The notes under the pieces: model-generated | Seen by the model: the letters and a program-made list of their open reading frames with translations, nothing else | Told to the model about the DNA's origin: nothing | The model's database searches: none | NCBI RefSeq assembly: GCF_019091085.1 | Contig: NZ_JAGXJY010000001.1 | Location: forward strand, 248,001 to 312,000 | Length of the DNA: 64,000 nucleotides | Reading direction: 5' to 3' | DNA from: Mesorhizobium sp. GbtcB19 | GTDB taxonomy: Bacteria; Pseudomonadota; Alphaproteobacteria; Rhizobiales; Rhizobiaceae | Position numbers and translations under genes: made by a program | Shown: piece by piece, positions 9,441 through 42,794 of the stretch | Position numbering within the stretch: position 1 is the stretch's first letter | Layout of the letters: each line of letters begins with the position of its first letter

Positions 9441-10517
9441 GTGCCCCTGAAAGCCACCGCCCATATCGAGGCCATGTCCGCTTTTGCGCTGGCGAATTTC
9501 GGTGGCTATGACCGGCCGACGCTGGCCCAGAACGAGAGCGCCTTCCCGCCCAGCCCGCGCGCCGTCGAAGCCGGCCGCGACGCCGTGGCGCGCAGCCATC
9601 TTTATCCGGACCCGGACTGGACCTTGCTGCGCGATGCGATCGCCGAGGTGTACGGGGTCGAACGTGACCTGATCCTGTGCGGCGCGGGCTCGATGGAGCT
9701 GATCGCCTGCACTATCGCGGCCTTCGCCGGTCCTGGCGCGGAGGTGCTGGGCACGGACTATGCCTATAATTTTGCCGCTTCGGCGGCGGCGCGTGTCGGG
9801 GCCGCCTATGTCAAGGCGTCAGAGCGCGACTATGCGGTGTCGATCGATGCCATTCTGGCAGCGGTGACGCCGGCGACGCGCATCGTCTTCGTCTGCAATC
9901 CGGGCAACCCGACCGGCACACGCATCCCCAACGCCGAATTGCTGCGCCTGCGCGCGGCGCTTCCCGGCGACGTTCTGCTGCTGATCGATCAGGCCTATGG
10001 CGAATTCGACGATCAGGATCCGCACGCCATCTTTGCGCTGGCCGGGCGCGGCGACACCGTCGTCCTGCGCACCTTGTCCAAGGCCTACGGACTGGCCGGC
10101 GCGCGCATCGGCTGGGGGCTGTTTCCACCCCAGATCGCCGCCGAAGTGCGCAAGATGCAGAATTCCAACCAGGTCTCCACCGTCAGCCTCGCCATGGCCG
10201 TCGCGGTCGTCGAGGACCAGGCCTATATGCGCGCCATCGTGGCGCGCACCGCCGATAGTCGCGGCCGCTTCGCGCAAGGCTTGCGGGCGGCCGGTTACGA
10301 GGTGCCTGAAAGCCGGACGAATTTCGTGCTGGTCCGCTTTGCCGACGTAGCAGCAGCGGCGGCCGCCGACACCGCTCTTCGCGGCGCCGAGATCATCGTG
10401 CGCGGCCTCGCCGGTTACGGCCTGACCGACTGCCTGCGCATAACCGTCGGGCCGCAGGACGTCATGGACCGCGCGCTGCGCGTCCTGACCGCCATGCGCG
10501 GCCGGCAATCCTGGTAG
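9441..10517 (+). CDS. Histidinol-phosphate-aminotransferase-like PLP enzyme
   Basis: About 358 residues from GTG 9441 (ATG 9474 is an alternative; no clear ribosome site for either). It is a fold-type I class I/II aminotransferase of HisC type: CNPGNPTGT substrate loop, IDQAYGEF with the PLP-contacting Asp and Tyr, and TLSKAYGLAGARIGW containing the Schiff-base Lys. It moves an amino group between an amino acid and a keto acid. It lies 22 bases before an allantoinase-like deacetylase on the same strand and begins the catabolic island, so a role with an amino acid released from that pathway is more likely than histidine synthesis. Substrate unknown. Confidence 0.85.
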   Translation: MPLKATAHIEAMSAFALANFGGYDRPTLAQNESAFPPSPRAVEAGRDAVARSHLYPDPDWTLLRDAIAEVYGVERDLILCGAGSMELIACTIAAFAGPGAEVLGTDYAYNFAASAAARVGAAYVKASERDYAVSIDAILAAVTPATRIVFVCNPGNPTGTRIPNAELLRLRAALPGDVLLLIDQAYGEFDDQDPHAIFALAGRGDTVVLRTLSKAYGLAGARIGWGLFPPQIAAEVRKMQNSNQVSTVSLAMAVAVVEDQAYMRAIVARTADSRGRFAQGLRAAGYEVPESRTNFVLVRFADVAAAAAADTALRGAEIIVRGLAGYGLTDCLRITVGPQDVMDRALRVLTAMRGRQSW

Positions 10518-10539
10518 CGGCTTCATCCGAGGGGATTTC

Positions 10540-11457
10540 ATGACGTCAGACGCGCCGTATCTGCCCGCCCGCGATTTCATCGGCTATGGCGAGCGGCCGC
10601 CGGCGGCTGAGTGGCCGGGCGGCGCGAAACTGGCGCTCAACATCGTCGTCAACTACGAGGAGGGCGCGGAATACTCGATCGGCGAAGGCGACGGCGTTTC
10701 CGAGGCGATCCTGTCCGACCTTGCCGTGTCGCCGGCCGTGCCCGGCCTGCGCAACCGCAACATGGAATCGCTCTACGAATACGGCTCGCGCGTCGGCGTC
10801 TGGCGGCTGATCTCGCTGTTCCAGGACAAGGGCGTCATCCCGACCTTCTATGTCGTCGGCCGCGCGCTGGAGCTCAACCCGACCGCCGGCAAGGCGATCG
10901 CGACGCTTGGCAGCGACATCGTCTGCCATGGCTGGCGCTGGATCGACTACGCGCCGCTCAGCGAAGAGGAAGAGCGCCAGCATATCGCCATGACGGTGGA
11001 TACTGTGCGCAAGATCACCGGCATCGACCCGGTTGGCTGGTACACCGGCCGGCCGAGCCTCAACACCAGAAGGCTGGTCGCCGAGCATGGCGGCTTCCTG
11101 TTCGACTGCGACGACTACAATGACGACCTGCCCTATTTCGTCGAAGTCGGCGCCAAGCGCCATCTGGTCGTCCCGCACTCTTTCGACAACAACGACAGCC
11201 GCTTTTCGCGCGGCTCAGGCCTCGAGACCGGGAGCCAGTTCTTCGAATATGTCAGCGACGGCGTCGACTGGCTGCTGAAGGAAGGCCAGACGGCACCGCG
11301 CATGATGACGGTGTCGCTGCATTGCCGGCTGGCGGCGCGCCCCGGCCGCATGATCGGGCTGGAGCGTTTCCTCGATAAGGTCACGTCCCATCCCGACATC
11401 TGGGTCTGTCGGCGCTCCGACCTCGCCCGGCATTGGCTCAGCCGGTTCGGCGGCTAG
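10540..11457 (+). CDS. PuuE-like allantoinase / polysaccharide-deacetylase-family protein
   Basis: 305 residues with GAGGGG 9 bases before the ATG. The opening DFIGYGERPPAAEWPGG, then NIVVNYEEGAEYS, and a later CHGWRWIDY and LNTRRLVAEHGGFL are the pattern of the metal-independent allantoinase PuuE in the NodB-fold deacetylase superfamily, which opens a hydantoin ring by hydrolysis. A paralogue with the same motifs lies at 39737, so one copy stands at each end of the catabolic island. A cyclic ureide substrate is inferred; allantoin itself is possible but no urate oxidase or ureidoglycolate gene is here. Confidence 0.85.
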   Translation: MTSDAPYLPARDFIGYGERPPAAEWPGGAKLALNIVVNYEEGAEYSIGEGDGVSEAILSDLAVSPAVPGLRNRNMESLYEYGSRVGVWRLISLFQDKGVIPTFYVVGRALELNPTAGKAIATLGSDIVCHGWRWIDYAPLSEEEERQHIAMTVDTVRKITGIDPVGWYTGRPSLNTRRLVAEHGGFLFDCDDYNDDLPYFVEVGAKRHLVVPHSFDNNDSRFSRGSGLETGSQFFEYVSDGVDWLLKEGQTAPRMMTVSLHCRLAARPGRMIGLERFLDKVTSHPDIWVCRRSDLARHWLSRFGG

Positions 11458-11544: not shown

Positions 11545-12447
11545 CTACTTGTTCGGCACCTCGTACACCTTGCCGTGCCAAGGTGCTGCATCGATCTGGT
11601 CGAGCGCCATCACGTAGAGCACCTTCTCATCCGGCCCGAAGGCGAAGTTTGGCATCGATGGCGACGGCACCGAAAGCGTGCGCAAAAGCTTGGCGTCCTT
11701 GTCGACGACGATGATCTTGCCCGGCGCATCGAGCGAGCGCGGGCTCTGGCCGATATACATCTCGCCCGCCTTGTCCATCTTGATCCCGTCGGGCCAGATA
11801 TGCGCCTGGCTCGGGAAGAGATCGTCGAGCCGCAGGAAGACGCGGCGGTTGCTTAAGGTGTGGTCGGACGAGACGTCGAATTCGATGATCCTGTTGTCCT
11901 CGGTCTCGACCAGATAGAGGATCTTGCCGTCATTCGACATGGCGAGACCATTGGCATTGTGCAGGTCGCCCGCGACCTTCTTCACGCTGCCGTCCTTGCC
12001 GATGTAGTAGGCCGAAGCATCGATCAACGGACCGCCCTTGCCGGAGCCGGTGAAATAGACGCCGCCATCCTTGTCGGGCGCAAAATCGTTCGGTCCGCTG
12101 AACGGCTTGCCGTCCGTGTCCTTGTCATAGGCCGGCAGTGTCTTGCCGTCGGCCGAGATGCGGCCGATCGTGTTGTTGTCGTAGCAGGTGACGAGGAACT
12201 CGCCGGTCGTCGTCGGCAGGACGGCAGACGGGCCGCAGCCATCCATCTTCCAGAAAATGTCGTTCTTCGTGCCGTCCCACATGTCCACGGAGCCGCGGCC
12301 ATATTCGACGTAGAAAAGCTTGTCCTGATACCAGATCGGACCTTCGGCGAACCACGCGTCGTCGTTGACCACTTTGACGTCGGCAGCCTGCGCGGCGGAC
12401 ACCATCACCAGGGCAAGCATCGTGCCCAGCAAATGCCGTTTGATCAT
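11545..12447 (-). CDS. Secreted SMP-30/gluconolactonase-like protein
   Basis: 300 residues from ATG 12447 (AAGGGGAA upstream). The first 21 residues are a clean signal peptide ending SAAQA-ADV, so the mature protein is periplasmic. The six-bladed propeller of SMP-30 lactonases is indicated by the metal-site segments FAEGPIW, FSGPNDF and WPDGIK, which supply Glu, Asn and Asp ligands. Family members hydrolyse lactones. It lies 69 bases downstream of the DMGDH-like gene on the same strand and probably belongs to the operon started by the substrate-binding protein gene. The substrate is unknown. Confidence 0.85.
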   Translation of the reverse strand: MIKRHLLGTMLALVMVSAAQAADVKVVNDDAWFAEGPIWYQDKLFYVEYGRGSVDMWDGTKNDIFWKMDGCGPSAVLPTTTGEFLVTCYDNNTIGRISADGKTLPAYDKDTDGKPFSGPNDFAPDKDGGVYFTGSGKGGPLIDASAYYIGKDGSVKKVAGDLHNANGLAMSNDGKILYLVETEDNRIIEFDVSSDHTLSNRRVFLRLDDLFPSQAHIWPDGIKMDKAGEMYIGQSPRSLDAPGKIIVVDKDAKLLRTLSVPSPSMPNFAFGPDEKVLYVMALDQIDAAPWHGKVYEVPNK

Positions 12448-12516
12448 GCGTTTCCCCTTTAGTTGCTTGAAGTCCCTTTCGAATGCCGGGCCTGCCAATC
12501 GCCGGGTGTTCGCCGC

Positions 12517-14934
12517 TTACGACCGCAGTCGCTTGCCGCCCGGGTCGAAGGGCGGATGCGGAAGCAACACCGCGTCATGCGGCCTGCCCAATATGGCGAC
12601 GGTCACCTTGTCCCCGGCCTTGGCGGTTCCGGCCTTGACGTAGCCCATGGCCAGCGACTGCTCGACGAAATAGCCATAGGCGCCTGACGAGACCTGGCCG
12701 ATCGGCGTGCCGTCCGGCAGGAAGATCGGCTCGCCGCCGGTGGCGTCGGCATCCTTCGCCGATACGGAAAGCATGATCAGTTGATCCCGCGCCGGCTTGT
12801 CGGCGACGGCGAGATAGGCATCGCGGTTGAGGAATTCCTTGTCCGTCTTGATCAGGCGATCGAGCTGCACCTCCTGCGGCCAGTATTCCGGCGAGTACTC
12901 GCGGCTCCAGCTGCCGTAGCCCTTTTCGACGCGCAGCGACATCAGCGCGCGCGATCCGACCGGTCCGGCGCCGACTTCCGCGCCTGCCTTGAGCAGCGCG
13001 CTGTAGAGCTCGACCTGGTTGCCGGCCTTGCAGTGCAACTCCCAGCCGAGATCGCCGGTGAAGGAGACCCTGAGCGCCACCACATCGACGCCGGCGACCG
13101 TGATCTGGCGCGAGCGCATGAACGGGAAGGCTTCGTTCGACAGATCGTCATTGGTCAGCCGCTGCAAGAGCTCGCGCGATTTCGGCCCGGCGACATTGAA
13201 ACCGCCAAGCTCCTCGGTGCGCGAGCGGAAAGTGGTGCCCTCGGGCAGCGGCACCGATTTGAAGAAGCGCTGATGGTAGCGCTCGGCCATGCCCGAGCCG
13301 ACCACCATGAACTCGTCCTCCGCCAGCCTGGTGACGGTGAAATCGCCGGCGATGCCGCCGCGCTTGCCGATCAGCGGCGTGAGGCAAGAGTTGCCGACCT
13401 TGGTCGGCATGCGGTTGGCGAAGAGCTCGTTCAGCCAGGCTTCCGCGCCCGGGCCCTTCACCTCGTATTTGGCGAAATTGGAGATGTCGATGATGCCGGC
13501 ATGCTCGCGCAGCATGCGCGCCTCGCGGCCGACCGGCCCCCACCAGTTCTGGCGGGTGAAGCCGATCGTCTCCTCGCGCGGCTCGCCTTCGGCCGCGAAC
13601 CACAGCGGATGCTCCCAGCCGAAATTGAGACCGAAGACGGCGCCCATCTCTTTCTGCATTTCATAGGCCGGCCGGGTCCGCACCGGGCGGCCGGCGGCGC
13701 GTTCCTCGTTCGGGAAATGGATCTTGAAGCGGTGGCTGTACTGATCCTGCACGCGGGCCTTGGTGAAGGCCTTGCCGGCCCAGTGGCCGAAGCGCGCCAT
13801 GTCCCAGCCGAACATGTCGAGCGTCGGCTCGCCTTCGATCATCCATTCGGCGGCGAGCTTGCCCATGCCGCCCGACTGCGAGAAGCCGGGGATGATGCCG
13901 TTGCAGCAGAAATAATTGCTGAGCTCCGGCACCGGCCCGAACAGCACGGCACTGTCCGGCGACCAGATCATCGGACCGTTGATCACCTTCTTGACGCCGG
14001 CGGTGGCGGCCGCGGGAACGCGCTGGACGGCGCGCATCATGTTCTCCTCGATGCGGTCGAGGTCGTCGGGAAACAGCTCGTGGCCGAAGTCCAGCGGGGT
14101 GCCTTCCTCGGCCCAGAACTTCATGTTGCGCTCGTAAGCGCCGATCAGCAGCCCGAGGCCTTCCTGGCGCAGGTAATATTCGCCGTCGCGGTCGGCGACC
14201 GACGGCAGACGCCGGCCCATCGAGGCGATTTCCGGAATGGTCTCGGTGACGAAATACTGGTGCTCGGTCGGGATCAGCGGCAGCTGCAGCCCGGCCATGG
14301 CGGCGACCTCCCTGCCCCACAGCCCGGCGGCGTTGACCACCCATTGCGTGCGGATGTCGCCCTTCGGCGTGCGCACGATCCAGCTGCCGTCGGCTTGCGC
14401 CTCGGTCGCGGTAACCGGCGTGAAGCGATGGATTTCCGCACCGCGCTGCCGCGCGCCGGCGGCGTAGGCCGCCGTCACGCCTGAGGGATCGACGTTGCCG
14501 CCCTCTGGCTCATACATGATGCAGCGTATGCCGTCGAAATCGACCAGCGGATGCAGCCGCTCCGCCTCGTCGCGGCCGACTTCATAGAAGTTCATCTTGT
14601 AGCGCCGCGCCTTGGCTTCCTGCAGCCGCAGCTGATGCTCGCGCGCCTCGGTCTGGGCAAGGTAGAGCGAGCCCGGCTGGAAGATGCCGCAGCCCTGGCC
14701 GGTTTCGGCCTCAAGCTCCTTGTAAAGAGCCATCGTGTAATGCTGCAGCCGGCTGATGTTGGTGGAATCATGCAGGCCGTGGATGTTGGCCGCCGCGTGC
14801 CATGTCGAGCCCGAGGTCAGCTCGTTGCGCTCGAGGAGGACGACATCCGTCCAGCCGAACTTGGCGAGATGATAGAGGATCGAGCAGCCGATCAGACCGC
14901 CGCCAATGACGACGGCTTGTGCATGAGTACGCAT
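12517..14934 (-). CDS. Dimethylglycine/sarcosine dehydrogenase-like FAD enzyme with GcvT domain
   Basis: 805 residues. Residues 7-36 are the FAD dinucleotide fold (VVIGGGLIGCSILYHLAKFG). SGSTWHAAANIHGLH contains the His (about 46) that aligns with the covalent-flavin His of dimethylglycine dehydrogenase. The C-terminal half from about 440 is the GcvT/aminomethyltransferase fold (SNFAKYEVKGPGAEAWLNEL, then GDLGWELH) that passes formaldehyde to tetrahydrofolate. It should oxidatively demethylate a tertiary or secondary N-methyl amine. Upstream by 150 bases is a substrate-binding protein gene on the same strand. The natural substrate may not be dimethylglycine. Confidence 0.9.
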   Translation of the reverse strand: MRTHAQAVVIGGGLIGCSILYHLAKFGWTDVVLLERNELTSGSTWHAAANIHGLHDSTNISRLQHYTMALYKELEAETGQGCGIFQPGSLYLAQTEAREHQLRLQEAKARRYKMNFYEVGRDEAERLHPLVDFDGIRCIMYEPEGGNVDPSGVTAAYAAGARQRGAEIHRFTPVTATEAQADGSWIVRTPKGDIRTQWVVNAAGLWGREVAAMAGLQLPLIPTEHQYFVTETIPEIASMGRRLPSVADRDGEYYLRQEGLGLLIGAYERNMKFWAEEGTPLDFGHELFPDDLDRIEENMMRAVQRVPAAATAGVKKVINGPMIWSPDSAVLFGPVPELSNYFCCNGIIPGFSQSGGMGKLAAEWMIEGEPTLDMFGWDMARFGHWAGKAFTKARVQDQYSHRFKIHFPNEERAAGRPVRTRPAYEMQKEMGAVFGLNFGWEHPLWFAAEGEPREETIGFTRQNWWGPVGREARMLREHAGIIDISNFAKYEVKGPGAEAWLNELFANRMPTKVGNSCLTPLIGKRGGIAGDFTVTRLAEDEFMVVGSGMAERYHQRFFKSVPLPEGTTFRSRTEELGGFNVAGPKSRELLQRLTNDDLSNEAFPFMRSRQITVAGVDVVALRVSFTGDLGWELHCKAGNQVELYSALLKAGAEVGAGPVGSRALMSLRVEKGYGSWSREYSPEYWPQEVQLDRLIKTDKEFLNRDAYLAVADKPARDQLIMLSVSAKDADATGGEPIFLPDGTPIGQVSSGAYGYFVEQSLAMGYVKAGTAKAGDKVTVAILGRPHDAVLLPHPPFDPGGKRLRS

Positions 14935-15083: not shown

Positions 15084-16739
15084 TCAGGCCTTGTCCAGCC
15101 AGACCTTGTCCAGCTGCAGTTCGAAGGTCTGATGCATGCCGAGGTTCTTCACGTAAGGGGCATGGTGGCGGTAGAGCGAGCGCCAGAACGCCTGGACGAG
15201 AATGCCGGAGTCCTGCAGGATGAACTCCACCTCCTTCATCATTTCCTTGCGCTTTTCGGGGTCGGCGATGGCCATCGCCGCGTTGAGCTTCTTGTCGAAA
15301 TCCGGATTGGCGTAGCCAGATTCGTTCCACGCCTCACCGCTGCGATAGGCGATCGCCAGCACCTGCACGCCCAGCGGCCGCATGCCCCAGTCGGTGGTCG
15401 ACCAGGGATATTTCGTCCAGTCGTTCCAGAACGAGGAACCCGGGATGATGGTGCGCTTGACCTTGAACCCGGCATCGCGCATCTGCGCGGCGACGACGTC
15501 GGCCGGGTCCTTCACATAGTCCGCATCGTAGGAGATGAGCTCGAACTCGTGATCCGTCTGGCCGGCCTCGGCCATCAGCGCCTTGGCCTTCGCCAGGTCG
15601 CGCGGAACTTTCGGCAGCGCGTAATATTCCGGATGGATCTGACAGACATGGTGGTTTTCGGCGACTTGGCCCAGGCCGCTGTAGCCAAGCTTCAGCACCG
15701 TCTCGTTGTCGACCGCCAGCTGGATGGCATTGCGCACCCGCTTGTCGTCATAAGGCTTGTTGGTCACGTTGGTGCGCAGCACGATGGTGCCGGCGGTGAC
15801 CACCTGCTCCTTGACCAGGCCCATGCTGTCATAGAGATCGACCGTGCCGCCGACCGTCTGATAGTTGCAATCGATCTCGCCGGCCTCGAAGGCGCTGCCG
15901 ATGGCCGGGTTGGAGGCGTCGGATCCGTAGTCGGTCCAGTCGACGCCGTCGAGATAGGGCTCGCCGCCGAACCAGGTGAAGTCCTTGCGCCGCCGCACCG
16001 AGGCCGATTCACCGACCTTGTACGAGATCAGCTCATAGGGGCCGGTGCCGGGCGTCTTCAGCATGTTGGCGCCGTTCTTGTCGAAGTCGCGATGGACGAT
16101 GACCGCCGGATAGTCGGAAAAGCCCGGGATGATGGTGACGTCCGACTGGTTGCATTTCAGCTTCACCGTATGGTCGTCGACCTTGGTGATGGCGCCTGCG
16201 GCGGCCTTCTTGGTGGTCGTGTCGATCAGCGAGCCCATGCGTCCGGCCATCGAATTGCCTTCGGCCGCCTTATCGCACCAGCGTGCGATGTTGTAGACGA
16301 TGTCGTCGGCGTTGAAGTCGTCGCCGTTCGACCATTTCACGCCCTTGCGCAAATGCAGCGTGTATTCGGTGGCGTCGTCGCTCACCTCCCAGCTCTCGAC
16401 CAGGTGGCCCTCGAAGGTGAAGTCGGTGGTGTAGCGGATCATATAGTCGTTGCACTGGCGCATGACGTTGGCGATTTCCGACCAGTCCCAGGCGCGCGGA
16501 TCCTTCATGTCCTTGATGATCATCTGCATCTTCAGGATGCCGCCCTTCTTGCCGGGCAAAGGTGCGGCGGCCTTGGCCGGCTCGATCCCTGCCATCGAAT
16601 AGGCGAGCGCCGTGGAAGCGCCCATCACGCTGGCCATGGCGAGGAATTCGCGGCGGTCCATCCCGCCTTTTTTGACTTCGACTGCGTAGCTTTCGATGAC
16701 CGCCGGGACGCGGTCACCGTCGCTCTTGAACATTGTCAT
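15084..16739 (-). CDS. ABC transporter substrate-binding protein, family 5, Tat signal
   Basis: 551 residues from ATG 16739 (GGAG upstream). [20 protein letters not shown] carries the twin-arginine signal (Arg 29-30), so the protein is exported folded. The mature part has the family 5 pattern: [20 protein letters not shown] followed by a [20 protein letters not shown] block, which in relatives binds peptides, nickel or opine-like compounds. No permease or ATPase genes adjoin it, so it must use a transporter encoded elsewhere. It leads a minus-strand set with the DMGDH-like and SMP-30 genes and has a GGCC-flanked AT-rich dyad in its upstream region. Confidence 0.92.
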
Positions 16740-16881
16740 CGTTGTTCTCCGGTTCAGGGCTTTTTGCCCGTTGCATTCCCCTTGCGGCACGCATGTTAGG
16801 GGCGATGCAAAAATCCCGGAAGGGCTCGATCCTTCACAAACCGCAGAAAACCGGCCTTTGAGACCTAAAAAAACAATGCCA

Positions 16882-16906
16882 TTGGCCCGTCAAATTTTTG
16901 AGGCCG
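16882..16906. promoter_or_regulatory. GGCC-flanked AT-rich site upstream of the substrate-binding gene
   Basis: TTGGCC and GGCC bracket CGTCAAATTTTTGA. The arrangement resembles the two better dyads at 17883 and 36519 and is a candidate site for the adjacent GcvA-like regulator, although the spacing (14 rather than 11) differs. Confidence 0.3.
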
Positions 16907-16915: not shown

Positions 16916-17809
16916 CTAAGGCCGAGCCGCGTCTTCCCTGGCTCTCGAAAGGATCCATTCCTTGACCGTGCGCGCGATGTTTCCTTTCGAAAGCTGGCTC
17001 TCGGTCAGATAGTAATTCCAGGGGCTTGGCGGTCGCACCGGAAACGGCTCGACGAGCAGCCCGCGATCCATGTAGGCGTGTGAGAGCGAACGCTGCGTGG
17101 CGACCAGGCCGGCGCCCATGGCGGCGAGCTCGAGCGCGATGTTGGAGGCATTGGTCGACAGGCCCTTGTCGTGCTCCTCCAGATCGACGCCAAGCGCCTC
17201 TGCGACCACTTGCCAATATTCCTGGCGGCCGTGAACGAAGATCCAGTCCACCTTGAGCATGTCCTGCGGCGTCTTCAGCGCATGCTCGCCTTCGAGCATG
17301 CCGGGCGCGCACAAAAGGACCAGTTCGTCGTTCCACAGCGGAATGGCCGCGGGCGGCCGGTCGTCGAAGCGTCGCGTCGAGATGGTGATGTCGGCGATCT
17401 GCTCGCTGATGTCCTCCCAGATCGTGCCGTGCAGCACGATCTCGATCTCCGGATGCTTTTTCCGGAATGCGGCCATGCACCCCGCCAGCCAGTTCTCCGC
17501 GAGGCTCATCGGGCAGGAAACCACCACCGTGCGGTTGCGTGAGGAAGCCACGATCGCTTCGGTCGCCTGGTCGATCTGGTCGAGCGCCTGCCGCAGCGTC
17601 GGCAGGAACGCCTCCCCCATCTCGGTCAGCTTCAGGCTGCGCGGATAGCGTATGAACAATTGCCGGCCGATATAGTGTTCCAGCGCCCGCACATGTGTGC
17701 TGACCGCCGCCTGGGTGTAGCCCAGCTCCTTGGCCGCCGTGGTGAAGCTCAAATGACGGGCCGAGCTCTCGAACGAGCGGATATAATTCAAGGGGGGTGG
17801 CGGCTTCAT
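16916..17809 (-). CDS. LysR-family regulator, GcvA-like
   Basis: 297 residues from ATG 17809 with AGGAGACCGGG just upstream. The N-terminus has the LysR helix-turn-helix with the GcvA signature (PPLNYIRSFESSARHLSFTT, AAKELGYTQAAVSTHVRALE). The rest is the two-lobed effector domain. It is transcribed away from the mmgE/prpD-sox operon across a 172-base gap that holds a T-N11-A type dyad. It is the only regulator inside the catabolic island and is the natural candidate to control it; GcvA relatives often respond to glycine or related amino acids. Confidence 0.93.
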   Translation of the reverse strand: MKPPPPLNYIRSFESSARHLSFTTAAKELGYTQAAVSTHVRALEHYIGRQLFIRYPRSLKLTEMGEAFLPTLRQALDQIDQATEAIVASSRNRTVVVSCPMSLAENWLAGCMAAFRKKHPEIEIVLHGTIWEDISEQIADITISTRRFDDRPPAAIPLWNDELVLLCAPGMLEGEHALKTPQDMLKVDWIFVHGRQEYWQVVAEALGVDLEEHDKGLSTNASNIALELAAMGAGLVATQRSLSHAYMDRGLLVEPFPVRPPSPWNYYLTESQLSKGNIARTVKEWILSRAREDAARP

Positions 17810-19379: not shown

Positions 19380-19386
19380 GCCCGCA

Positions 19387-34605: not shown

Positions 34606-36020
34606 GGTGTCCAATCCTCGACTGGTTTTCTAAGATGCGTGGGATCGGCGGCGGCGCGCGCCACAAAGCGCCCGAACCCCGGTTCGGCCTGCAGCTTGCC
34701 GTCGACAACCACCGGCACGCCGCGCACCAGCACCGTGGTCGGCTTGCCGGTGACACTTCTGCCTTCGTAAGGCGTGAAATCGACGCGCGAATGCAGCGCC
34801 TTGTGCCCGAGCGTCCAGCGCGCCGTCGGGTCCCACAGGGCAATATCTGCGTCGAGGCCAACGGCGATACGGCCCTTGCGGTCGGCAAAGCCGTAGATCG
34901 ACGCGGCGTTGCGCGAGGTGAGATCGAGATAGCGCTCGAGCGTCAGGCGGCCGGTGAGCAGCCCTTCCGAGAACAGCAGCGGCAGACGCGTCTCAATGCC
35001 GGGAATGCCGCTCAGCGTCGTGGTGAAGCCTGGCGTTTCGGACCGGCCGATCTTGTCGGCGAAATAGTATGGCGAATGGTCCGACGACCAGAGGTCGATG
35101 CCGCCGTCAATCAGTTCTTGCCACAGATGCTCATGGCTGCGCGGCGAGCGCGGCGGCGGCGAGAAGACGAAGCGCGCCGCGTCTTTGCCTGGACGATCGA
35201 GGTCGACGGCCCCGACGAACAGATATTGCGGGCAGGTTTCGGCTATCGCGTCGACGCCGCGCGCCTTCGCCCGCGCCACCTCCTCGGCCGACTGCCAGGA
35301 CGAGACATGCACGATGGTCATGCGCGCGCCGGTCATCTCGGCGAAGGCCAGCGCGCGATGCGTCGCCTCGCGCTCCATCGTCTCGCTGTGGGCCACCAGA
35401 TGATAGCGCATGTCGGTACGGCCGAGATCGATCAGCCGCTGGCGCGTGCGCCGGATCGCGGCGTCGTTCTCGGCATGGACCATGACGATCCAGCCAAGGC
35501 GGCTCGCCGTATCGAGAACCTTGAAGAACAAATCGTCGTCGACGGCAAAACCCTGATAGGTCATGAACAACTTGACCGAGGCGATGCCGCGCCCGGCAAG
35601 CGCGTCGAGCTGACCCTCGACGTCCGCGCCGGTGCCCATGGTCACCACGGCATGCAGTCCGTAGTCGATCACAGCACGTCCCGCGGCGCGCTCCAGCGCG
35701 CGGTCGATGGCGCCGATGGTCGTCATGTCCTGTCCAGGCATGCCGAACGGCACGATGCAGGTGGTGCCGCCAAAGGCGGCCGAGATCGTGCCGGAATAGA
35801 AATCGTCGGCATTGCCCGCCCCGCCCCAAACCGGCTGGTCGAGATGGCAATGCGCATCGATGCCGCCGGGCATCACCCAGCGGCCATTGGCATCGATAGC
35901 CTTCTCGCCGGAGAGGCTCTTGCCGATGGCGGCGATGCGGCCGTCATCGATGCCGATGTCGCACTCGGCCCAGCCGTCGTCGAGCGCTACGCGCCCGCCC
36001 TTGATCACCAGCTCATGCAT
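34590..36020 (-). CDS. D-hydantoinase / dihydropyrimidinase
   Basis: 476 residues. All metal-site motifs are present: DAHCHLD, the carboxylated Lys in SVKLFMTY, His in VMVHAEND, His in TIVHVSS and Asp in SSDHSPY. It hydrolyses a 5-substituted hydantoin or dihydropyrimidine to the N-carbamoyl amino acid, which the next gene can cleave. Length and motif order match the family. It follows RidA by 39 bases. Confidence 0.93.
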   Translation of the reverse strand: MHELVIKGGRVALDDGWAECDIGIDDGRIAAIGKSLSGEKAIDANGRWVMPGGIDAHCHLDQPVWGGAGNADDFYSGTISAAFGGTTCIVPFGMPGQDMTTIGAIDRALERAAGRAVIDYGLHAVVTMGTGADVEGQLDALAGRGIASVKLFMTYQGFAVDDDLFFKVLDTASRLGWIVMVHAENDAAIRRTRQRLIDLGRTDMRYHLVAHSETMEREATHRALAFAEMTGARMTIVHVSSWQSAEEVARAKARGVDAIAETCPQYLFVGAVDLDRPGKDAARFVFSPPPRSPRSHEHLWQELIDGGIDLWSSDHSPYYFADKIGRSETPGFTTTLSGIPGIETRLPLLFSEGLLTGRLTLERYLDLTSRNAASIYGFADRKGRIAVGLDADIALWDPTARWTLGHKALHSRVDFTPYEGRSVTGKPTTVLVRGVPVVVDGKLQAEPGFGRFVARAAADPTHLRKPVEDWTPWLDA

Positions 36021-36059: not shown

Positions 36060-36410
36060 TCAGCCGACAGCCGCCGTCACCATGATCTCGACGCGATACT
36101 GGTCGCCGGCGAGCCGCGCTTCCACCGTGGCGCGCACCGGCATGGCGCTCCTGTCGATCCAAGCGTCCCAGGCCGTGTTCATCATCTCGAAATCGGCGAT
36201 GTCCCGCAGCCAAATCTGCGCGCTGAGCAGCTTCGACTTGTCGCTGCCGGCCTTGGCCAGAAGCGCGTCGATCTTGGCAAGGATCTGCTTGGTCTGGCTG
36301 GTGGTGTCGCCGGAAAGGTCATCCGCTGTCAGGCCGGCGACATAGACGGTGCCGTTGTAGCGGAGCACCCGGCAGAAACGCTGTCCGTTTTCGAGGCGTT
36401 CGATGGTCAT
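36060..36410 (-). CDS. RidA-family enamine/imine deaminase
   Basis: 116 residues. The YjgF/YER057c/UK114 pattern is present: YNGTVYVAGLTADDLSGDTT, then LAKAGSDKSKLLSAQIWLRD, and PVRATVEARL, whose Arg binds the substrate carboxylate. RidA hydrolyses reactive 2-imino or enamine acids, as formed by amino-acid oxidases. It is the first gene of the hydantoin operon and fits the DAO-like enzyme encoded downstream. Confidence 0.9.
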   Translation of the reverse strand: MTIERLENGQRFCRVLRYNGTVYVAGLTADDLSGDTTSQTKQILAKIDALLAKAGSDKSKLLSAQIWLRDIADFEMMNTAWDAWIDRSAMPVRATVEARLAGDQYRVEIMVTAAVG

Positions 36411-36514: not shown

Positions 36515-36547
36515 CGGCATGGCCAAAAAAATTATGGCCATAGCCGC
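36515..36547. promoter_or_regulatory. Candidate LysR operator in the ridA/MFS divergent region
   Basis: ATGGCC (36519-36524), 11 bases AAAAAAATTAT, then GGCCAT, flanked by GCCGG and AGCCGC. It shares form, spacer length and flanks with the dyad at 17883, which suggests that the same regulator controls the operons diverging here. Confidence 0.45.
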
Positions 36548-36644: not shown

Positions 36645-37898
36645 ATGAGGTCGATCGCTCAATCCGCGGCGCGGCTCTGGCAAAATGCCGAGCGGTCCCG
36701 CGCCATGCTGCCGATCATGGTCGGCGTTTGCCTCGCCTGCATCGGCAGCGCCATGCTGACCACCGCCGTGTCGCTGCATCTCGGCAAGCCCGGCATCTCA
36801 CCGCAAGTCGTGCAGATCGTGCTGACCGCCTATCCCGTCGGCTTTCTCATCGGATGCCTGGTCACCCGCCCGGCAGTCGCCCAATACGGCCACGAGCGGA
36901 CCTTCGTGGTGATCCTGGTGCTGGCGCTGTTGGCGGCTTGTGGCTTCGTCTTCACCGACTTCCTGCCGAGCTGGATCTGCTTCCGCCTGCTCGGCGGCAT
37001 GGCGATGGCATCGCTCTTCGTCGTCTGCGAAAGCTGGATCAACCTCTATGCCGAGCAGCACAATCGCGGCGCGCTGTTCTCGCTCTACATGCTGACCACG
37101 GCGATCGCGGTGCTGCTCGGACAGCTCCTCGTCGGACTGGTCGGCCCACAGTCTCCGCATCTGTTCCCGGTTGCGGCCGCGACCGTGCTGCTGGCGCTGA
37201 TCTCCAAATTCATCGGCGGCCGCTGGCCGGCGTTGCCTGCCGTGTCTGTCGATCCTGACCATGCGAGTTCTGCTAGACCGGTCAAGCGGCTAGGCCCGCT
37301 GGCACTGTTCCGGCTGGCGCCCGTCACGGTCGTCGCGATCTTCCAGGGCGGCATCACCAACATGAACATCTTCGTGCTGACGCCGATCTACGGCACGCAG
37401 ATCGGCCTGTCGGCGGGCACGACGGTCGGGCTGGTCACGACCATCAGCATCGCCGGCATGCTCGCCCAGACGCCGGTCGGCTGGCTGTCGGACCGGTTTG
37501 AGCGGCGCATCATATTGCTGGTCCAGGGCATCCTGTCCGTCACGCTGTGCGCCACGATTGCCTGGCTCGGCAATTTCTCGGTGCCGCTGCTTTTCGTGCT
37601 GTTCTTCCTCTACGGTTGCACCGCGCTGACCGTCTATCCGGTGGCGATGGCGTTCGGCGCCTCGCAACTGCACAGCCGGCACATGGTCGGCGCTTCCGGC
37701 ACGCTGCTCCTCCTTTATTCGATCGGCAACGTCGCGACGCCCGGCATTTCCGCAGGTCTGATGCAGCATATGGGCGCGCCGGCGATGTTTCTGCTGCTCG
37801 GCGGCGGCGCCGGGCTGGTGACCTTGGCCGCCTGCTACAATCTTCTGCGCCGTCCCGTCACAATGGCGACCCTGCAGCCGATCGAGGAGCAGGTCTGA
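36645..37898 (+). CDS. MFS transporter
   Basis: 417 residues with about 12 hydrophobic segments and the MFS loop motif variants GCLVTRPAVAQYGHERTF after helix 2 and GWLSDRFERRI between helices 8 and 9. It resembles the YcaD/NarK-like sugar or drug carriers without a clear substrate class. It opens a six-gene plus-strand operon; the SDR that follows overlaps its stop by one base. It probably imports or exports a pathway compound. ATG 36705 is an alternative start closer to the first helix. Confidence 0.88.
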   Translation: MRSIAQSAARLWQNAERSRAMLPIMVGVCLACIGSAMLTTAVSLHLGKPGISPQVVQIVLTAYPVGFLIGCLVTRPAVAQYGHERTFVVILVLALLAACGFVFTDFLPSWICFRLLGGMAMASLFVVCESWINLYAEQHNRGALFSLYMLTTAIAVLLGQLLVGLVGPQSPHLFPVAAATVLLALISKFIGGRWPALPAVSVDPDHASSARPVKRLGPLALFRLAPVTVVAIFQGGITNMNIFVLTPIYGTQIGLSAGTTVGLVTTISIAGMLAQTPVGWLSDRFERRIILLVQGILSVTLCATIAWLGNFSVPLLFVLFFLYGCTALTVYPVAMAFGASQLHSRHMVGASGTLLLLYSIGNVATPGISAGLMQHMGAPAMFLLLGGGAGLVTLAACYNLLRRPVTMATLQPIEEQV

Positions 37899-38656
37899 TG
37901 ACGGATATGAAACGCCTTGAAGGCAAAGTCATCCTGATCGCCGGCGCGGCCAGCGGCATCGGCGCGGCGATTGCCGGCCGCTGTATCGCTGAAGGCGCAA
38001 AGGTTGTCTGCGCCGACTACGATCTTGAGCCAGCGACGAAACTTGCCGCAGCGCTCGGGCCTTCCGCGGCCGTTTGCCAGTGCGACGTGACGAAGATTGA
38101 CTCCGCCAGATCGGCCGTCGACTTCGCCGAGAAGAAATTCGGCCGGCTCGACGGACTGGTGCACAATGCGGCCGCGCCTTCGACCAGCGCCACCGTTGTC
38201 AATCTCGATGAGAGCGCCTGGCGGCACGAGATCGATGTCGGCCTGACCGGCGCCTTCCTGATGAGCAAGTTCGCCGTGCCGCTGATGGCTGCCGGCGGCG
38301 GCGGCTCTGTCGTCTTCATCGGCTCGCAATTCGGGCGCGTCGCCACCACAAGGGCCGTCGCCTATTGCGCCGCCAAGGCCGGGCTGATCCACCTCGCCAA
38401 GGCAATGGCCGTCGATCACGCGCCCGACAATATCCGCGTCAACAGCCTCTCGCCGGGCGCCGTGGCGACGACGCGGCTTTTGCGCCGATTTGCCGATTTC
38501 GAGGCCGCCAATGCCGGCCTTGGGCCGGCGCATCTGCTCGGCCGCATCGCCGAGCCTGAAGAGATCGCCGCGGCGGCGGCCTTCCTGCTTTCCTCCGACG
38601 CATCCTTCGTCACCGGATCCGACATGCTCGTGGACGGCGGCTATGCGACGCGCTGA
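37898..38656 (+). CDS. SDR-family oxidoreductase
   Basis: 252 residues of the classical short-chain dehydrogenase type: LIAGAASGIGAAIA nucleotide motif, HNAAAPS in place of NNAG, Ser in FIGSQFG and YCAAK as the catalytic Tyr-Lys pair. The end LVDGGYATR is typical. The residue after the second strand is Asp (CADYD), which favours NAD over NADP. The start overlaps the MFS stop (TGATG). Substrate unknown; an alcohol or hydroxy acid of the pathway. Confidence 0.92.
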   Translation: MTDMKRLEGKVILIAGAASGIGAAIAGRCIAEGAKVVCADYDLEPATKLAAALGPSAAVCQCDVTKIDSARSAVDFAEKKFGRLDGLVHNAAAPSTSATVVNLDESAWRHEIDVGLTGAFLMSKFAVPLMAAGGGGSVVFIGSQFGRVATTRAVAYCAAKAGLIHLAKAMAVDHAPDNIRVNSLSPGAVATTRLLRRFADFEAANAGLGPAHLLGRIAEPEEIAAAAAFLLSSDASFVTGSDMLVDGGYATR

Positions 38657-38686: not shown

Positions 38687-39709
38687 ATGACGCTGCTCGT
38701 CACCGGCGGCACCGGCTTCGTCATGAGCGTGGTCGCGCGCGCATGGCTCGACCGCGACCCTCTGGCCCGCGCCGTGATCCTCGATCGCTCCGGCCTCGAC
38801 GCGGCGGCCGAAAAGCATTTCGCGCCGGTGCGCGATAGGCTCACGGTGATTTCCGCCGACATCCTCAACCCGCAGGACTGGTCCGCGACGCTCGACAAGC
38901 ACGGCATCACGGCGATCGTGCATGGCGCGACGATCACGCCGATCTCGCGCGGCAGCGCCTCGGAGGCGAAACGCCAGCCGGAGGCCGAGGACCCCGCCCG
39001 GATCGTCGACGTCAATCTCATGGGCACCGTGCGGATGCTGGACTGGGCGCGCACAAATCCGGACCTGAAGCGCTTCGTCTATGTCAGCTCCGGTTCCGTC
39101 TACCGCCACAACGGGCCCGACTGGGCGAGCGAGCCGCTGCCGGAAGACGGCTATGTCGCGCCGCTGACGCTCTACGGCATCTCGAAATTCGCCTCCGAGA
39201 TGGTCACCAACCGCTATGCCGACTTGTTCGGCCTGTCGGCGGTCTCGGTGCGGCTTGCCTCCGTCTACGGCCCGATGGACCGCGCCACCGAGAGCCGCAA
39301 TTTTCGCCATGTTCCCAACCGCGTCGCGCATATGGCTTTGGCCGGCGAGACGATCAAGCCGAACAGCCTCGAACCCGTCGGCGATTACCTGACCTCGACC
39401 GACGTTGCCGCCGCGATCCTGGCGCTGATCGATGCGCCGCGCCTCAATTACCGCCACTACAACATCGGCTCCGGCTCCAGCCAGACCATCGGCGAGATCA
39501 TCGGCTGGGCAAGGGAACGCGTGCCCGGGCTGAAGGCCGAGGTGACGGTCGGCGATGACGCCAACATCGTCCAGGATGTGCGGCTGAAAGGCGGCATGTG
39601 GGGCGCCTATGACATCGCCCGCATCCTGCGCGACACGGAATGGCGGCCGCGCCCCGGCAAGGAAGCCTTCCACGCCTATATGGACTGGATTGCCGCCAAC
39701 GAAAGCTGA
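38687..39709 (+). CDS. NAD-dependent epimerase/dehydratase family protein
   Basis: 340 residues of the extended SDR type. LLVTGGTGFVMSVV is the nucleotide motif, VSSGSVYRH supplies the Ser and LYGISKFASEM the Tyr-x-x-x-Lys pair. The C-terminal half (YNIGSGSSQTIGEIIGWARE) is the substrate lobe. AAAGGAG precedes the ATG. Relatives act on nucleotide sugars, but others reduce uronate or keto substrates; with no sugar genes nearby the second group is more likely. Confidence 0.9.
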   Translation: MTLLVTGGTGFVMSVVARAWLDRDPLARAVILDRSGLDAAAEKHFAPVRDRLTVISADILNPQDWSATLDKHGITAIVHGATITPISRGSASEAKRQPEAEDPARIVDVNLMGTVRMLDWARTNPDLKRFVYVSSGSVYRHNGPDWASEPLPEDGYVAPLTLYGISKFASEMVTNRYADLFGLSAVSVRLASVYGPMDRATESRNFRHVPNRVAHMALAGETIKPNSLEPVGDYLTSTDVAAAILALIDAPRLNYRHYNIGSGSSQTIGEIIGWARERVPGLKAEVTVGDDANIVQDVRLKGGMWGAYDIARILRDTEWRPRPGKEAFHAYMDWIAANES

Positions 39710-40680: not shown

Positions 40681-42015
40681 GTGTTCGAAACGCTGATCTG
40701 CGGCGCAACGGTGGTCAACGCAGAGGGGACTACGCGTGCCGATGTCGGCATCACGGCAGGCAGGATCGCCGCACTCATGCCTCCCGGCGAAACGACGGAA
40801 GCCGGCAAAATCGTCGATGCCTCGGGTTGCTTCCTGCTGCCAGGCCTTGTCGACGCGCATGCGCATCTGCGCGATCCAGGACTGACCCACAAAGAAGACT
40901 TCTCCTCCGGCACCCATGCGGCGGCACTCGGCGGCGTGACGACCGTGCTCGACATGCCGACTGACGAGCCGTGGACGGCCACCTCTGAGCTGCTCGCCGA
41001 CAAGATGGCGATGGCCGAAGGCCGCATCCATGTCGATGTCGGCCTGCAGACCGTGGTCAGCCGCGACCTGTCGCTTGTCCCTCGCCTGCTCGACCGCGCG
41101 CCGGTCTCGTTCGAGTTGTTCACCGCCGACGTGCCGGACGCCTTTCTGTTCGCAACGCTCGACGCCGTCGCCGAGGCGCTGAAGGCGTTCGCGGGCGCCG
41201 AGACGCTGATCGGCATCTCGTCCGGCGACCAGTCGATCCTGGCCGGCAGCGCGATGCGCGACCGTTCCGGCAGCATCGCCGCCTTCCTGGACAGCCGGCC
41301 GCCGCTTGCGGAGGCCAACGGTGTCGCCCGCGCGCTCGTCGCCGCTGCTTCGGCTGAGGCAAAAATCCACGTCCGCCAGATCAACTCAGAGCTTGGCGTC
41401 GAGACCTGGAGCCGGCTGCGCGGCATGGCTGACGCCAGCGTCGAGACCACGCCGCAGAACCTGTTCTTCACCGCCGCCGACTATGAGACGCAAGGCGCCA
41501 ATCTGAAGGCCTCGCCGCCGTTGCGATCGCCACACGACGTCGACGCGTTGCGCGCCGCGCTAAGCGCCGGCCTGATCGACATCGTCGCCACCGACCACGC
41601 CCCACACGCGCCGGCCGAAAAGGCTGCGCGCTATGCTGCTTTCGCCGACATTACGGGCGGCATGCCGGGATTGCAGACGCTGCTTCAGACCATGCTCAAG
41701 CTGACCGACGAAGGGCTCATCGCCCTGCCCGACCTCGTGCGCATGTGCTCAACCAATCCGGCCGAGCGCTTCGGCCTTAGCCGACGCAAGGGGAGGATCG
41801 CCGTCGGCTATGATGCCGATCTGCTCATCGTCGACCCGCGCCAATCCAGCACCATCGCCAATGCCGATCAGGTGTCGCGGGCGGGCTACACGCCCTTCGA
41901 CGGCTGGACCGTGAAAGCGCGCCTGACCAGCGTCTTCCTGCGCGGCCATGAGATCGTGCGCGAAGGCAGGCTGGTCGGTCCGACGCTTGGAAAGATCGTC
42001 ACCCGGGAGCGCTGA
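40681..42015 (+). CDS. Dihydroorotase/allantoinase-like amidohydrolase with altered metal site
   Basis: 444 residues from GTG 40681 (GAGGGA upstream). The fold and ends are normal: DAHAHLRDPGLTHKED at the first metal pair, KIHVRQINS with one His, TDHAPHAPAEK with the Asp, and the NPAERFGLSRRKGRIAVGYD closing block. But the carboxylated-Lys motif (usually FKxF/VKLF) reads FELF, so Glu replaces Lys, and the usual HAE/HAEN segment reads GISSGD, without His. A binuclear centre bridged by Glu, a mononuclear site, or loss of activity are all possible. The hydantoinase at 34590 keeps the normal residues. Confidence 0.88.
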   Translation: MFETLICGATVVNAEGTTRADVGITAGRIAALMPPGETTEAGKIVDASGCFLLPGLVDAHAHLRDPGLTHKEDFSSGTHAAALGGVTTVLDMPTDEPWTATSELLADKMAMAEGRIHVDVGLQTVVSRDLSLVPRLLDRAPVSFELFTADVPDAFLFATLDAVAEALKAFAGAETLIGISSGDQSILAGSAMRDRSGSIAAFLDSRPPLAEANGVARALVAAASAEAKIHVRQINSELGVETWSRLRGMADASVETTPQNLFFTAADYETQGANLKASPPLRSPHDVDALRAALSAGLIDIVATDHAPHAPAEKAARYAAFADITGGMPGLQTLLQTMLKLTDEGLIALPDLVRMCSTNPAERFGLSRRKGRIAVGYDADLLIVDPRQSSTIANADQVSRAGYTPFDGWTVKARLTSVFLRGHEIVREGRLVGPTLGKIVTRER

Positions 42016-42020
42016 ACACC

Positions 42021-42794
42021 ATGGCCTTGCTCGCAGACAAAACCGCCATCGTCACCGGAGCGAGTTCCGGCATCGGCCGCGCGATCGCGCTGAAATTCGC
42101 GGCCGAAGGCGCCAACGTCGTCGTCGCCGACACGGTGGAGCGTCCGATCGAAGGTGGTGAGAGCACCGTCGACATGATCCACGCCGACGGCGGCACGGCC
42201 ATCTACGTCAAGACCGACATTTCGGACTGGAGCGCGGTCGATGCGCTCGTCGGCGCAACCGTCGATCGGTTTGGCCGGCTCGACGTGATGGTCAACAATG
42301 CCGCGATCTACACCAGCACCAATCTGGTCGAGACCACGCCGGAGCAGTGGAACCGCGTCATCGGCGTCAACCTGACCGGCTTTTTCTACTGCAACAAACG
42401 CGCCGTCACGCAGATGCTGACCCAGGCGCCGGTCAACGACGTGCGCGGCCGCGTCATCAATATCTCCTCGCAGCACGGCATGGTCGCCTGCCCCGGCGAC
42501 CTGCCCTATTCGGTGAGCAAGGGCGGCATCGTGCAGATGACGCGCCAGATCGCGGTCGACCATGCCGACGACCTGATCGTCTGCAACGCCATCGCTCCGG
42601 GCAAGATCATCACCGGAAAACCGGGCGTCGCCAACGATCCCGACGCGCTCGACTATTCGCGCCGCCGCACGCCCTGGCCCCGGCTCGGGCATCCCAACGA
42701 CGTGGCGGGCGCGGCGCTGTTCCTCGCCAGTGACATGGCCAGCTACGTCACCGGCATCAACCTGATGGTGGATGGCGGCTGGATGGCCGGCTGA
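42021..42794 (+). CDS. SDR-family oxidoreductase
   Basis: 257 residues, classical SDR: IVTGASSGIGRAIA, NNAAIYTS, Ser in ISSQHG, and YSVSK. The charged residue after strand 2 is Asp (VVADT), favouring NAD. LMVDGGWMAG closes the fold. It begins 5 bases after the upstream stop and is the last gene of the operon. The substrate is unknown. In the 153 bases after it I see only a GC-rich imperfect hairpin around 42818-42875. Confidence 0.92.
   Translation: MALLADKTAIVTGASSGIGRAIALKFAAEGANVVVADTVERPIEGGESTVDMIHADGGTAIYVKTDISDWSAVDALVGATVDRFGRLDVMVNNAAIYTSTNLVETTPEQWNRVIGVNLTGFFYCNKRAVTQMLTQAPVNDVRGRVINISSQHGMVACPGDLPYSVSKGGIVQMTRQIAVDHADDLIVCNAIAPGKIITGKPGVANDPDALDYSRRRTPWPRLGHPNDVAGAALFLASDMASYVTGINLMVDGGWMAG

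Follow-up and report, generated by a model that had tools for sequence, protein, structure and literature searches.

A Mesorhizobium gene island that combines three types of N-demethylase with several non-homologous cyclic amidases and a shared predicted operator-like site

Operons that join a hydantoinase to a D-carbamoylase are known from Agrobacterium-type bacteria, and the breakdown of creatinine and N-methylhydantoin follows a logic of ring opening, decarbamoylation and oxidation by a sarcosine oxidase. Relatives of the methyltransferase MttB normally work with a corrinoid protein; to our knowledge, the substrates and corrinoid needs of the MttB-family methyltransferases of aerobes are largely open. 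We have analyzed a block of 28 genes in a 6.7 Mb genome (G000) of Mesorhizobium, a genus known for legume-root symbionts, which lies within a window of 64,000 nucleotides (positions 248001-312000 of contig C1) and extends from an aminotransferase gene (start at 9411 or 9441 of the window) to that of a short-chain dehydrogenase/reductase (SDR), SDR2, which ends at 42794. That this island behaves as one genetic unit is well supported, by the co-occurrence of its markers, its constant ends, a reshuffled compact version and an operator-like site shared between promoters. Our preferred reading, held with evenly balanced confidence, is a single LysR-controlled island for the use of an N-methylated, chiral, hydroxylated compound with at least one cyclic amide, a ureide being favoured for the large form found in the window. 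As in the Agrobacterium-type operons, a D-hydantoinase, a D-carbamoylase and a D-amino-acid-oxidase-type enzyme stand in one operon, here the one running from RidA to isochorismatase; in contrast to those operons, the island adds N-demethylases, SDRs, PuuE-like and FrhB-like proteins under what is probably one LysR-type regulator, and the Asp/Glu racemase (hydantoin racemase) family was not found among the Pfam-scanned island proteins (all but SoxD). The island also has the ring-opening, decarbamoylation and sarcosine-oxidase logic of the creatinine/N-methylhydantoin pathway, to which it adds MttB and a dimethylglycine dehydrogenase (DMGDH)-like protein. The creatininase family and HyuA/HyuB were not found among the same scanned proteins, and creatinine breakdown was set aside; a partial overlap with this pathway had been proposed in an initial annotation made from the letters alone. 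That annotation had also stated that no single known pathway uses the whole set; no curated family or pathway tested covers it, and the island is a new combination of known enzyme families.

Genes were called by codon bias and families assigned by Pfam and NCBIfam scans. The HisC-like aminotransferase and PuuE1 lie at the left end on the plus strand; LysR, a solute-binding protein, DMGDH and SMP-30 follow on the minus strand, in reading order. A left plus-strand operon (PrpD to Amidohydro_3), a middle minus-strand operon (RidA to isochorismatase) and a right plus-strand operon (the major facilitator superfamily, MFS, transporter to SDR2) make up the rest. The features, with family matches in bits, are as follows.

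9411..10517, plus strand: HisC-like pyridoxal phosphate-dependent aminotransferase (PF00155, 170.7; TIGR01141, 249.3, below the cut-off of 276.55; start at 9411, TTG, or 9441, GTG)
10540..11457, plus strand: PuuE1, allantoinase-like cyclic amidase of the polysaccharide-deacetylase family (TIGR03212, 386.8, cut-off 424.6)
11545..12498, minus strand: SMP-30/gluconolactonase family, optional (PF08450, 117.9; in 22 of 80 DMGDH loci; inside the MttB operon in the compact version)
12517..14934, minus strand: DMGDH-like FAD/folate N-demethylase (DAO, FAO_M, GCV_T and GCV_T_C domains; 624.7 to mitochondrial DMGDH 5l46)
15084..16790, minus strand: family-5 (peptide/nickel type) ATP-binding cassette (ABC) solute-binding protein (PF00496, 228.2; permease genes not adjoining)
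16864..16893, no strand assigned: weak operator-like copy in front of the gene for the solute-binding protein (tied for second among intergenic pairs, score 14)
16916..17809, minus strand: LysR-type regulator (PF00126 and PF03466; start inferred, GTG at 17830 possible)
17878..17910, plus strand: operator-like site in the LysR/PrpD divergent promoter (pair score 17 with 36515-36547)
17982..19379, plus strand: MmgE/PrpD-family protein (PF03972 and PF19305; nearest solved relative IDS-epimerase, weak)
19387..20628, plus strand: SoxB-like beta subunit (369.3 to 2gag_B; TIGR01373, 447, below the cut-off of 529)
20632..20898, plus strand: SoxD-like delta subunit (absent from the list of open reading frames; 73% identity to the annotated Ruegeria delta subunit)
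20895..23750, plus strand: SoxA-like alpha subunit with 2Fe-2S, FAD and folate domains (TIGR01372, 893, cut-off 1164)
23751..24332, plus strand: SoxG-like gamma subunit (TIGR01375, 29 against a cut-off of 143.95, weak; operon position)
24342..25250, plus strand: DHDPS-family lyase/aldolase or deaminase (PF00701, 114)
25258..26226, plus strand: D-2-hydroxyacid dehydrogenase (PF02826, 170; start inferred)
26248..27789, plus strand: MttB-family methyltransferase (solved relatives 4yyc, 2qne and 9yce; no internal stop)
27802..29292, plus strand: Amidohydro_3-family protein (PF07969, 131; not found in the compact version)
29277..29942, minus strand: isochorismatase-family hydrolase (PF00857, 138; solved relatives of mixed function)
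29939..31216, minus strand: M20 carbamoylase-type hydrolase (NF009527, 467.7, above the cut-off of 461; TIGR01879, 265.9, above 204)
31213..32373, minus strand: DAO-family oxidase/dehydrogenase (PF01266, 176)
32370..33677, minus strand: FrhB/FdhB-like protein, probably an iron-sulphur flavoprotein (PF04432 and PF04422; eight invariant cysteines)
33691..34605, minus strand: D-carbamoylase, CN_hydrolase family (start at 34605, ATG, or 34614, TTG)
34590..36020, minus strand: HydA, D-hydantoinase/dihydropyrimidinase family (356.4 to D-hydantoinase 1nfg)
36060..36410, minus strand: RidA-family protein (PF01042, 83.1)
36515..36547, plus strand: operator-like site in the RidA/MFS divergent promoter (paired with 17878-17910 in the score above)
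36645..37898, plus strand: MFS transporter (PF07690, 141.4)
37898..38656, plus strand: SDR1 dehydrogenase (PF13561, 211.4)
38687..39709, plus strand: NAD-dependent epimerase/dehydratase-family protein, hereafter epimerase-like (PF01370, 130.3; 73-80% identity in 16 Rhizobium, Neorhizobium and Paracoccus plasmid records)
39737..40669, plus strand: PuuE2, second allantoinase-like cyclic amidase (TIGR03212, 279.5, cut-off 424.6; 251 to 1z7a and 248.1 to PuuE 3cl6)
40681..42015, plus strand: dihydroorotase/allantoinase-like amidohydrolase (PF01979, 94.3; TIGR03178, 299.3, below 357.85; TIGR00857, 281.9, above 279.05)
42021..42794, plus strand: SDR2 dehydrogenase, last gene of the block (PF13561, 207.8)

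All 28 frames are open in the window from start to stop, and in the congener G155 the block is colinear, with 85-99% protein identity, except for SMP-30, which has no match there. The DMGDH-like protein is 96-98% identical to its counterparts in many Mesorhizobium species, in keeping with the assignment to this genus. The ratio of nonsynonymous to synonymous substitution rates (dN/dS) is 0.015-0.28 across the 27 genes compared with G155 (SMP-30 left out), so that the frames of the island are genes under purifying selection and not chance open reading frames; the sole stop met in this comparison lies before the more probable LysR start, 17809. Every enzyme type that had been named for 9441-42794 is present at the family level, according to Pfam, NCBIfam and comparisons with solved chains, but the initial annotation had not listed SoxD, PrpD, the DHDPS-family protein, SMP-30, the FrhB-like protein, Amidohydro_3, the MFS transporter, the two SDRs and the epimerase-like protein. 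Moreover, SoxA does not start at 20739, as had been read, but at 20895, and SoxD, which was found by tblastn in all six loci tried, occupies 20632-20898.

The genus was sampled with 119 Mesorhizobium genomes, our own among them, chosen evenly from a larger set. The same 39 of these contain HydA and the epimerase-like gene; DMGDH is present in those 39 as well as in G309 and in G263, whose assembly is fragmented and 79% complete. An orthologue of FrhB (at least 78% identity) occurs in 34 of the 39. In 38 of them a single contig carries both DMGDH and the epimerase-like gene, at a distance of 10.7-26.8 kb, and in the remaining one the two are on separate contigs. At the family level, over 199 genomes, SoxA is uninformative as a marker, with a match in all 199, mostly paralogues near 40% identity, and the epimerase-like gene matches 184 at E <= 0.001, with only G000 and G155 above 40% identity among the matches listed. 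The ends of the block are constant amid varied surroundings: by nucleotide similarity, 21 groups are distinguished among 33 left flanks and nine among 18 right flanks, counts that set a maximum for the number of sites (six of 20 newly fetched right flanks were dropped, SDR2 lying outside the stretch; among the left flanks, those under 1500 bases, or under 800 for three loci, were excluded).

Four of the 39 genomes (G233, G267, G294 and G305) carry, by marker spacing, a compact version, in which a span of about 13 kb contains HydA, DMGDH and the epimerase-like gene and an orthologue of FrhB is lacking; G258 has no FrhB match either but has the D-carbamoylase, and is therefore counted with the large form. 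Two compact genomes, G267 and G305, were read over 40 kb. HydA lies there directly downstream of DMGDH, in tandem (the gap is 35-75 bases in G267, depending on the HydA start), and divergent to the pair run a full ABC transporter, MFS, SDR1, the epimerase-like gene, PuuE2, the dihydroorotase-like gene and SDR2. SMP-30, MttB, D-2-hydroxyacid dehydrogenase, DHDPS, SoxG, SoxA, SoxD, SoxB and PrpD come next, in one direction, and then LysR. The aminotransferase, PuuE1, RidA, D-carbamoylase, FrhB, DAO, M20, isochorismatase and Amidohydro_3 gave no match in either 40-kb stretch, and the solute-binding protein differs from that of the window, being 81-85% identical to that of Rhizobium pRL12, which has 36-38% identity to the protein of the window. 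Since 18 of the 28 genes are reshuffled yet kept together, they make up a core, and nine genes are accessories of the large form. The earlier proposal of a single catabolic unit, in which ring openers of several unrelated families stand beside three kinds of N-demethylase, is supported.

The operator-like site was first spotted by eye, and its support comes from a comparison of every pair among 12 intergenic regions, within the block and immediately to its right, with shuffles that preserve base composition only, and from an out-of-sample scan of 22 loci (one of the 12 regions, 19380-19461, lies inside SoxB if SoxB starts at 19387). The best pair, LysR/PrpD with RidA/MFS, scores 17, which none of 300 mononucleotide shuffles reaches (maximum 15); the next two, both at 14, are these two regions in the opposite orientation and the pair of RidA/MFS with the promoter of the solute-binding protein. 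The 33-base sites, 17878-17910 and 36515-36547, rank with the best-conserved stretches of their promoters (35 and 24 distinct sequences). A weight matrix trained on the large-form sites only (31 and 23) and run over 22 other loci gave its top hit in the LysR/PrpD and DMGDH/ABC regions of both compact genomes (29.9, 24.8, 18.1 and 7.9 bits). All eight loci from Sinorhizobium, Shinella, Rhizobium and Pseudaminobacter have the top hit between LysR and MttB (16.1-31.5 bits), and a further locus, L139, has it between LysR and PrpD (32.4 bits). The helix-turn-helix of LysR is 89-91% identical in the compact Mesorhizobium, Sinorhizobium meliloti and Shinella loci. These shared predicted sites suggest a single LysR regulon; it had been considered that the operons might answer to different signals, and the predicted site common to their promoters would indicate the opposite.

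In the pathway that we propose, the substrate would enter through the family-5 ABC binding protein and the MFS transporter. Its N-methyl groups would be removed by MttB, acting on a fully methylated nitrogen, by the DMGDH-like enzyme and by the four-subunit Sox enzyme, the latter two probably handing the carbon to tetrahydrofolate; the three together in one regulon would fit the stepwise demethylation of a quaternary, tertiary and secondary amine. PrpD may invert or dehydrate a chiral intermediate, although epimerisation is a guess, because the match to IDS-epimerase reaches only 72.7 bits. HydA, PuuE2 and the dihydroorotase-like protein would open cyclic amide bonds, and the SDRs, the epimerase-like protein, the DHDPS-family protein and the D-2-hydroxyacid dehydrogenase would break down the carbon skeleton. 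The same proteins, with SMP-30 and PrpD, suggest that this skeleton is hydroxylated and chiral, a feature that falls outside the scheme of an N-methylated ureide or hydantoin put forward in the initial annotation. In the large form, D-carbamoylase, M20, isochorismatase, DAO, RidA and FrhB, with PuuE1 and the aminotransferase, may form an accessory branch for intermediates resembling N-carbamoyl-D-amino acids, in which removal of the carbamoyl group would be followed by oxidation of the D-amino acid and hydrolysis of the imine by RidA. The D-hydantoinase together with D-carbamoylase, DAO and RidA is the full logic from hydantoin through carbamoyl-D-amino acid and D-amino acid to 2-oxo acid, and the presence of carbamoylases makes a ureide the favoured substrate class for this form. 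Because HydA and DMGDH stand in tandem in the compact form and the core occurs with interchangeable ring openers, we infer that demethylation is coupled to the opening of a cyclic amide. To that extent the earlier scheme holds, but a ureide or hydantoin is not established as the substrate. More specifically, and only tentatively, an undescribed aerobic pathway might act on a fully N-methylated, betaine-type cyclic amide: three demethylases that differ in mechanism would work in series, MttB first and without a dedicated corrinoid partner, and cyclic amidases that are interchangeable although not homologous would then open the ring, all governed by a single LysR operator code common to Mesorhizobium and Sinorhizobium.

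HydA passes the curated cut-off for D-hydantoinase (TIGR02033, 453.6 against 393.25), and the nearest solved chains of the D-carbamoylase are N-carbamoyl-D-amino-acid hydrolases (best 6lei, 333.5 bits); its sequence has the motifs FPEM, YRKMH and ICNDRRWPE, of the type of the Glu-Lys-Cys triad that we take to be the hallmark of D-carbamoylases. SoxB, SoxD, SoxA and SoxG stand in the order of a heterotetrameric sarcosine oxidase, with Fer2, FAD and folate domains in alpha, although SoxA, SoxB and SoxG each score below their TIGR subfamily cut-offs. MttB belongs to the superfamily (PF06253, 688.8 bits over a cut-off of 25); it is not a pyrrolysine trimethylamine methyltransferase, as TIGR02369 gives 309.4 against 525 and there is no in-frame stop. 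The D-2-hydroxyacid dehydrogenase is 90% identical in G155, 70-72% in the compact version and 69% in Ruegeria, and occurs in 11 of 80 DMGDH loci. The isochorismatase-family protein matches two N-carbamoylsarcosine amidohydrolases (58.6 and 55.5 bits) and a protein of unassigned function (65.5 bits). In the FrhB-like protein cysteines 31, 34, 37, 76, 197, 224, 291 and 294 are invariant in five sequences; no match to CofH was found in the genome, in a search in which 11 of 14 controls were detected, so that coenzyme F420 is unlikely as its partner. Outside Mesorhizobium, two of four loci with FrhB relatives are polysaccharide clusters and two lie near ectoine or betaine genes, and the protein therefore gave no clue to the substrate; a relative of 53-54% identity is encoded on a Pseudomonas plasmid, close to a betaine-type transporter. 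Two described uses were set aside: plain allantoin, as the two PuuE proteins (386.8 and 279.5 against 424.6) and, in the AllB model, the dihydroorotase-like protein (299.3 against 357.85) stay below the cut-offs, and ergothioneine, as HydA reaches 246.4 against 650 and 203 against 600 in the ErtD models and M20 268.5 against 520 for ErtE.

Several observations weigh against our preferred reading. No computation shows the substrate, and the island yielded no corrinoid protein for MttB. Linked inheritance inflates co-occurrence, and since linkage alone could produce it, co-occurrence is not sufficient for one unit. The 40 kb read in each of two compact versions yielded no decarbamoylase, and the four compact-form genomes no D-carbamoylase at E <= 1e-60; a ureide therefore fits the large form only, and the common substrate need not be one. 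Eight of the 80 DMGDH loci compared have PrpD, DHDPS and MttB but no SoxA, SoxB or SoxG in the stretches examined (L112, L125, L126, L128, L129, L132, L135 and L141). As to the operator, one compact LysR/PrpD site is the weak one of 7.9 bits, the copy upstream of the solute-binding protein has a median of only 13.7 in the matrix, and the best hits of two loci (L137 and L140; 13.1 and 10.0) precede DMGDH rather than MttB. The scan gave no convincing site in L149 (10.2) or in two paralogue loci (up to 5.2), and at most 11.1 in four Rhodobacterales loci, where LysR is 43-44% identical. The pRL12 and pAMI1 loci have no promoter site. Moreover, the 13-base core is not specific by itself, with 10 copies in the genome and six of its reversed control.

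The 80 DMGDH loci, 59 of which cover at least 20 kb, were compared within the stretches examined. The HisC-like aminotransferase occurs in 39, of which 31 also have PuuE1, seven have HyuB, one has neither and none has both; the association with HyuB is that of one group of Rhodobacterales. PrpD (53 loci) and a mandelate-racemase-family protein (six loci) never occur together. A ring opener lies within 10 kb in 40 of the 80, as a raw count. One locus (L121) has two matches to the solute-binding protein (93% and 97%) side by side, where the other loci have one. Three relatives resemble the island in part. The Leisingera/Ruegeria cluster shares DMGDH, PrpD, SoxBDAG, the D-2-hydroxyacid dehydrogenase, MttB and the HisC-like aminotransferase, but has HyuA/HyuB and an EutA-like racemase in place of PuuE and HydA, a LysR of 43-44% identity and no strong operator match in four loci, and the right-hand operon is not in the stretch; the best named families of its HyuA/HyuB are caprolactamase subunits (420.4 and 190.4 bits, below cut-offs of 1000). 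The Sinorhizobium pSymA-type cluster shares DMGDH (83-85%), MttB (84-85%), LysR and the operator-like site, whereas a glycine-betaine-type ABC transporter, a DddP-like M24 protein and a mandelate-racemase-family protein take the place of PrpD and the ring openers. On an S. meliloti plasmid (L003:8188-22420) DMGDH, LysR, MttB, GlxA, a DddP-like M24 protein, an isochorismatase, a betaine-type ABC transporter, a mandelate-racemase-family protein and an Ldh-family oxidoreductase lie together with a matching operator-like site. The operon of Rhizobium pRL12 and Paracoccus aminophilus pAMI1 (GlxA, family-5 ABC, MFS, hydA, SDR, epimerase-like, PuuE, a thiamine pyrophosphate (TPP)-dependent enzyme, NF004807, dihydroorotase-like, SDR, SDR) keeps relatives of MFS, SDR1, the epimerase-like protein, PuuE2, the dihydroorotase-like protein and SDR2 in the same order, but differs from the island in a HydA of 45-46% identity, the TPP-dependent enzyme, GlxA in place of LysR and the lack of a demethylase in the stretches read; operons of this type are conserved in L108, L001, L004, L005 and L006.

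These relatives bear on the alternatives. The island might serve one pathway for a substrate that is not a ureide, such as an N-methyl lactam alkaloid or a cyclic betaine; in that case HydA, PuuE and the dihydroorotase-like protein would be lactam or imide hydrolases, and the decarbamoylases an added accessory of the large form. We regard this as possible but rather doubtful. In its favour, the 40 kb read in the compact version gave no decarbamoylase and its four genomes no D-carbamoylase at E <= 1e-60; the ring opener beside the same core in Leisingera/Ruegeria has caprolactamase subunits as its best families, if below the cut-offs, the orthologous Sinorhizobium LysR/DMGDH/MttB core accompanies a glycine-betaine-type ABC transporter and a mandelate-racemase-family protein, and the solved MttB relative 9yce is a glycine betaine methyltransferase. 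However, the D-hydantoinase/D-carbamoylase pair is under selection in the large form (dN/dS of 0.11 and 0.06 against G155), which is hard to explain without a ureide. That one regulator governs two functions, betaine demethylation for one-carbon units and nitrogen and the scavenging of hydantoins and D-amino acids, seems unlikely to us: the genome has two other MttB-DMGDH pairs, with no hydantoinase relative found in the surrounding 20 kb, and the right-hand operon occurs on Rhizobium and Paracoccus plasmids without demethylases, but the HydA-DMGDH tandem of the compact version and the operator-like site common to the promoters speak against such a division. Finally, it is highly improbable that the genes are unrelated neighbours in a hot spot for catabolic genes, as an integrase gene at 2353-3702 and the occurrence of modules apart in other taxa could imply, for random loss of single modules across the genus would then have been expected, and the same ends in many contexts, the reshuffled set, for the most part complete, and the shared operator-like sites largely refute it.

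The presence of the full marker set in 39 of 119 genomes of the genus makes it probable that the substrate of the island is a recurrent compound of soil or roots. The island links the MttB-family methyltransferases of aerobes to a defined regulon with a predicted operator, and thereby offers a direct route to the substrate by induction; the same answer might explain the pRL12/pAMI1-type operon, which has part of the core.

The only match to PF02607 (corrinoid cap) in the genome is at C1:384329-384547, 72 kb right of the window and about 109 kb from the MttB of the island on the same contig, in a 253-residue frame beside an MttB paralogue of 39% identity. As the genome encodes seven MttB-family proteins, either this lone protein serves all seven or the MttB of the island works otherwise. 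No MetH-sized match was found in the genome, in a search that detected the Escherichia coli and Caulobacter controls (nine of 14 controls), and the genome may therefore lack a classical MetH. Two more MttB-DMGDH pairs, at C1:709967-711490 and 365011-366522 (L099 and L100), have an MttB of 65% and 49-50% and a DMGDH of 43% and 41% identity to those of the island, so that the pair is a recurrent unit.

Left of the island, a lower-GC, gene-poor stretch holds the phage-type integrase, with an arm-binding domain, at 2353-3702; no tRNA gene was found in the window. Just right of the island and outside the block, 47121-50279 encodes the medium (FAD) and large (molybdopterin) subunits of an enzyme of the xanthine-dehydrogenase/CO-dehydrogenase type. 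In G155 (L088:13711-16571), an EmrA/EmrB-like efflux pair, recognized by reading and not by a family search, lies between SDR2 and a cupin gene and is without a counterpart in the window.

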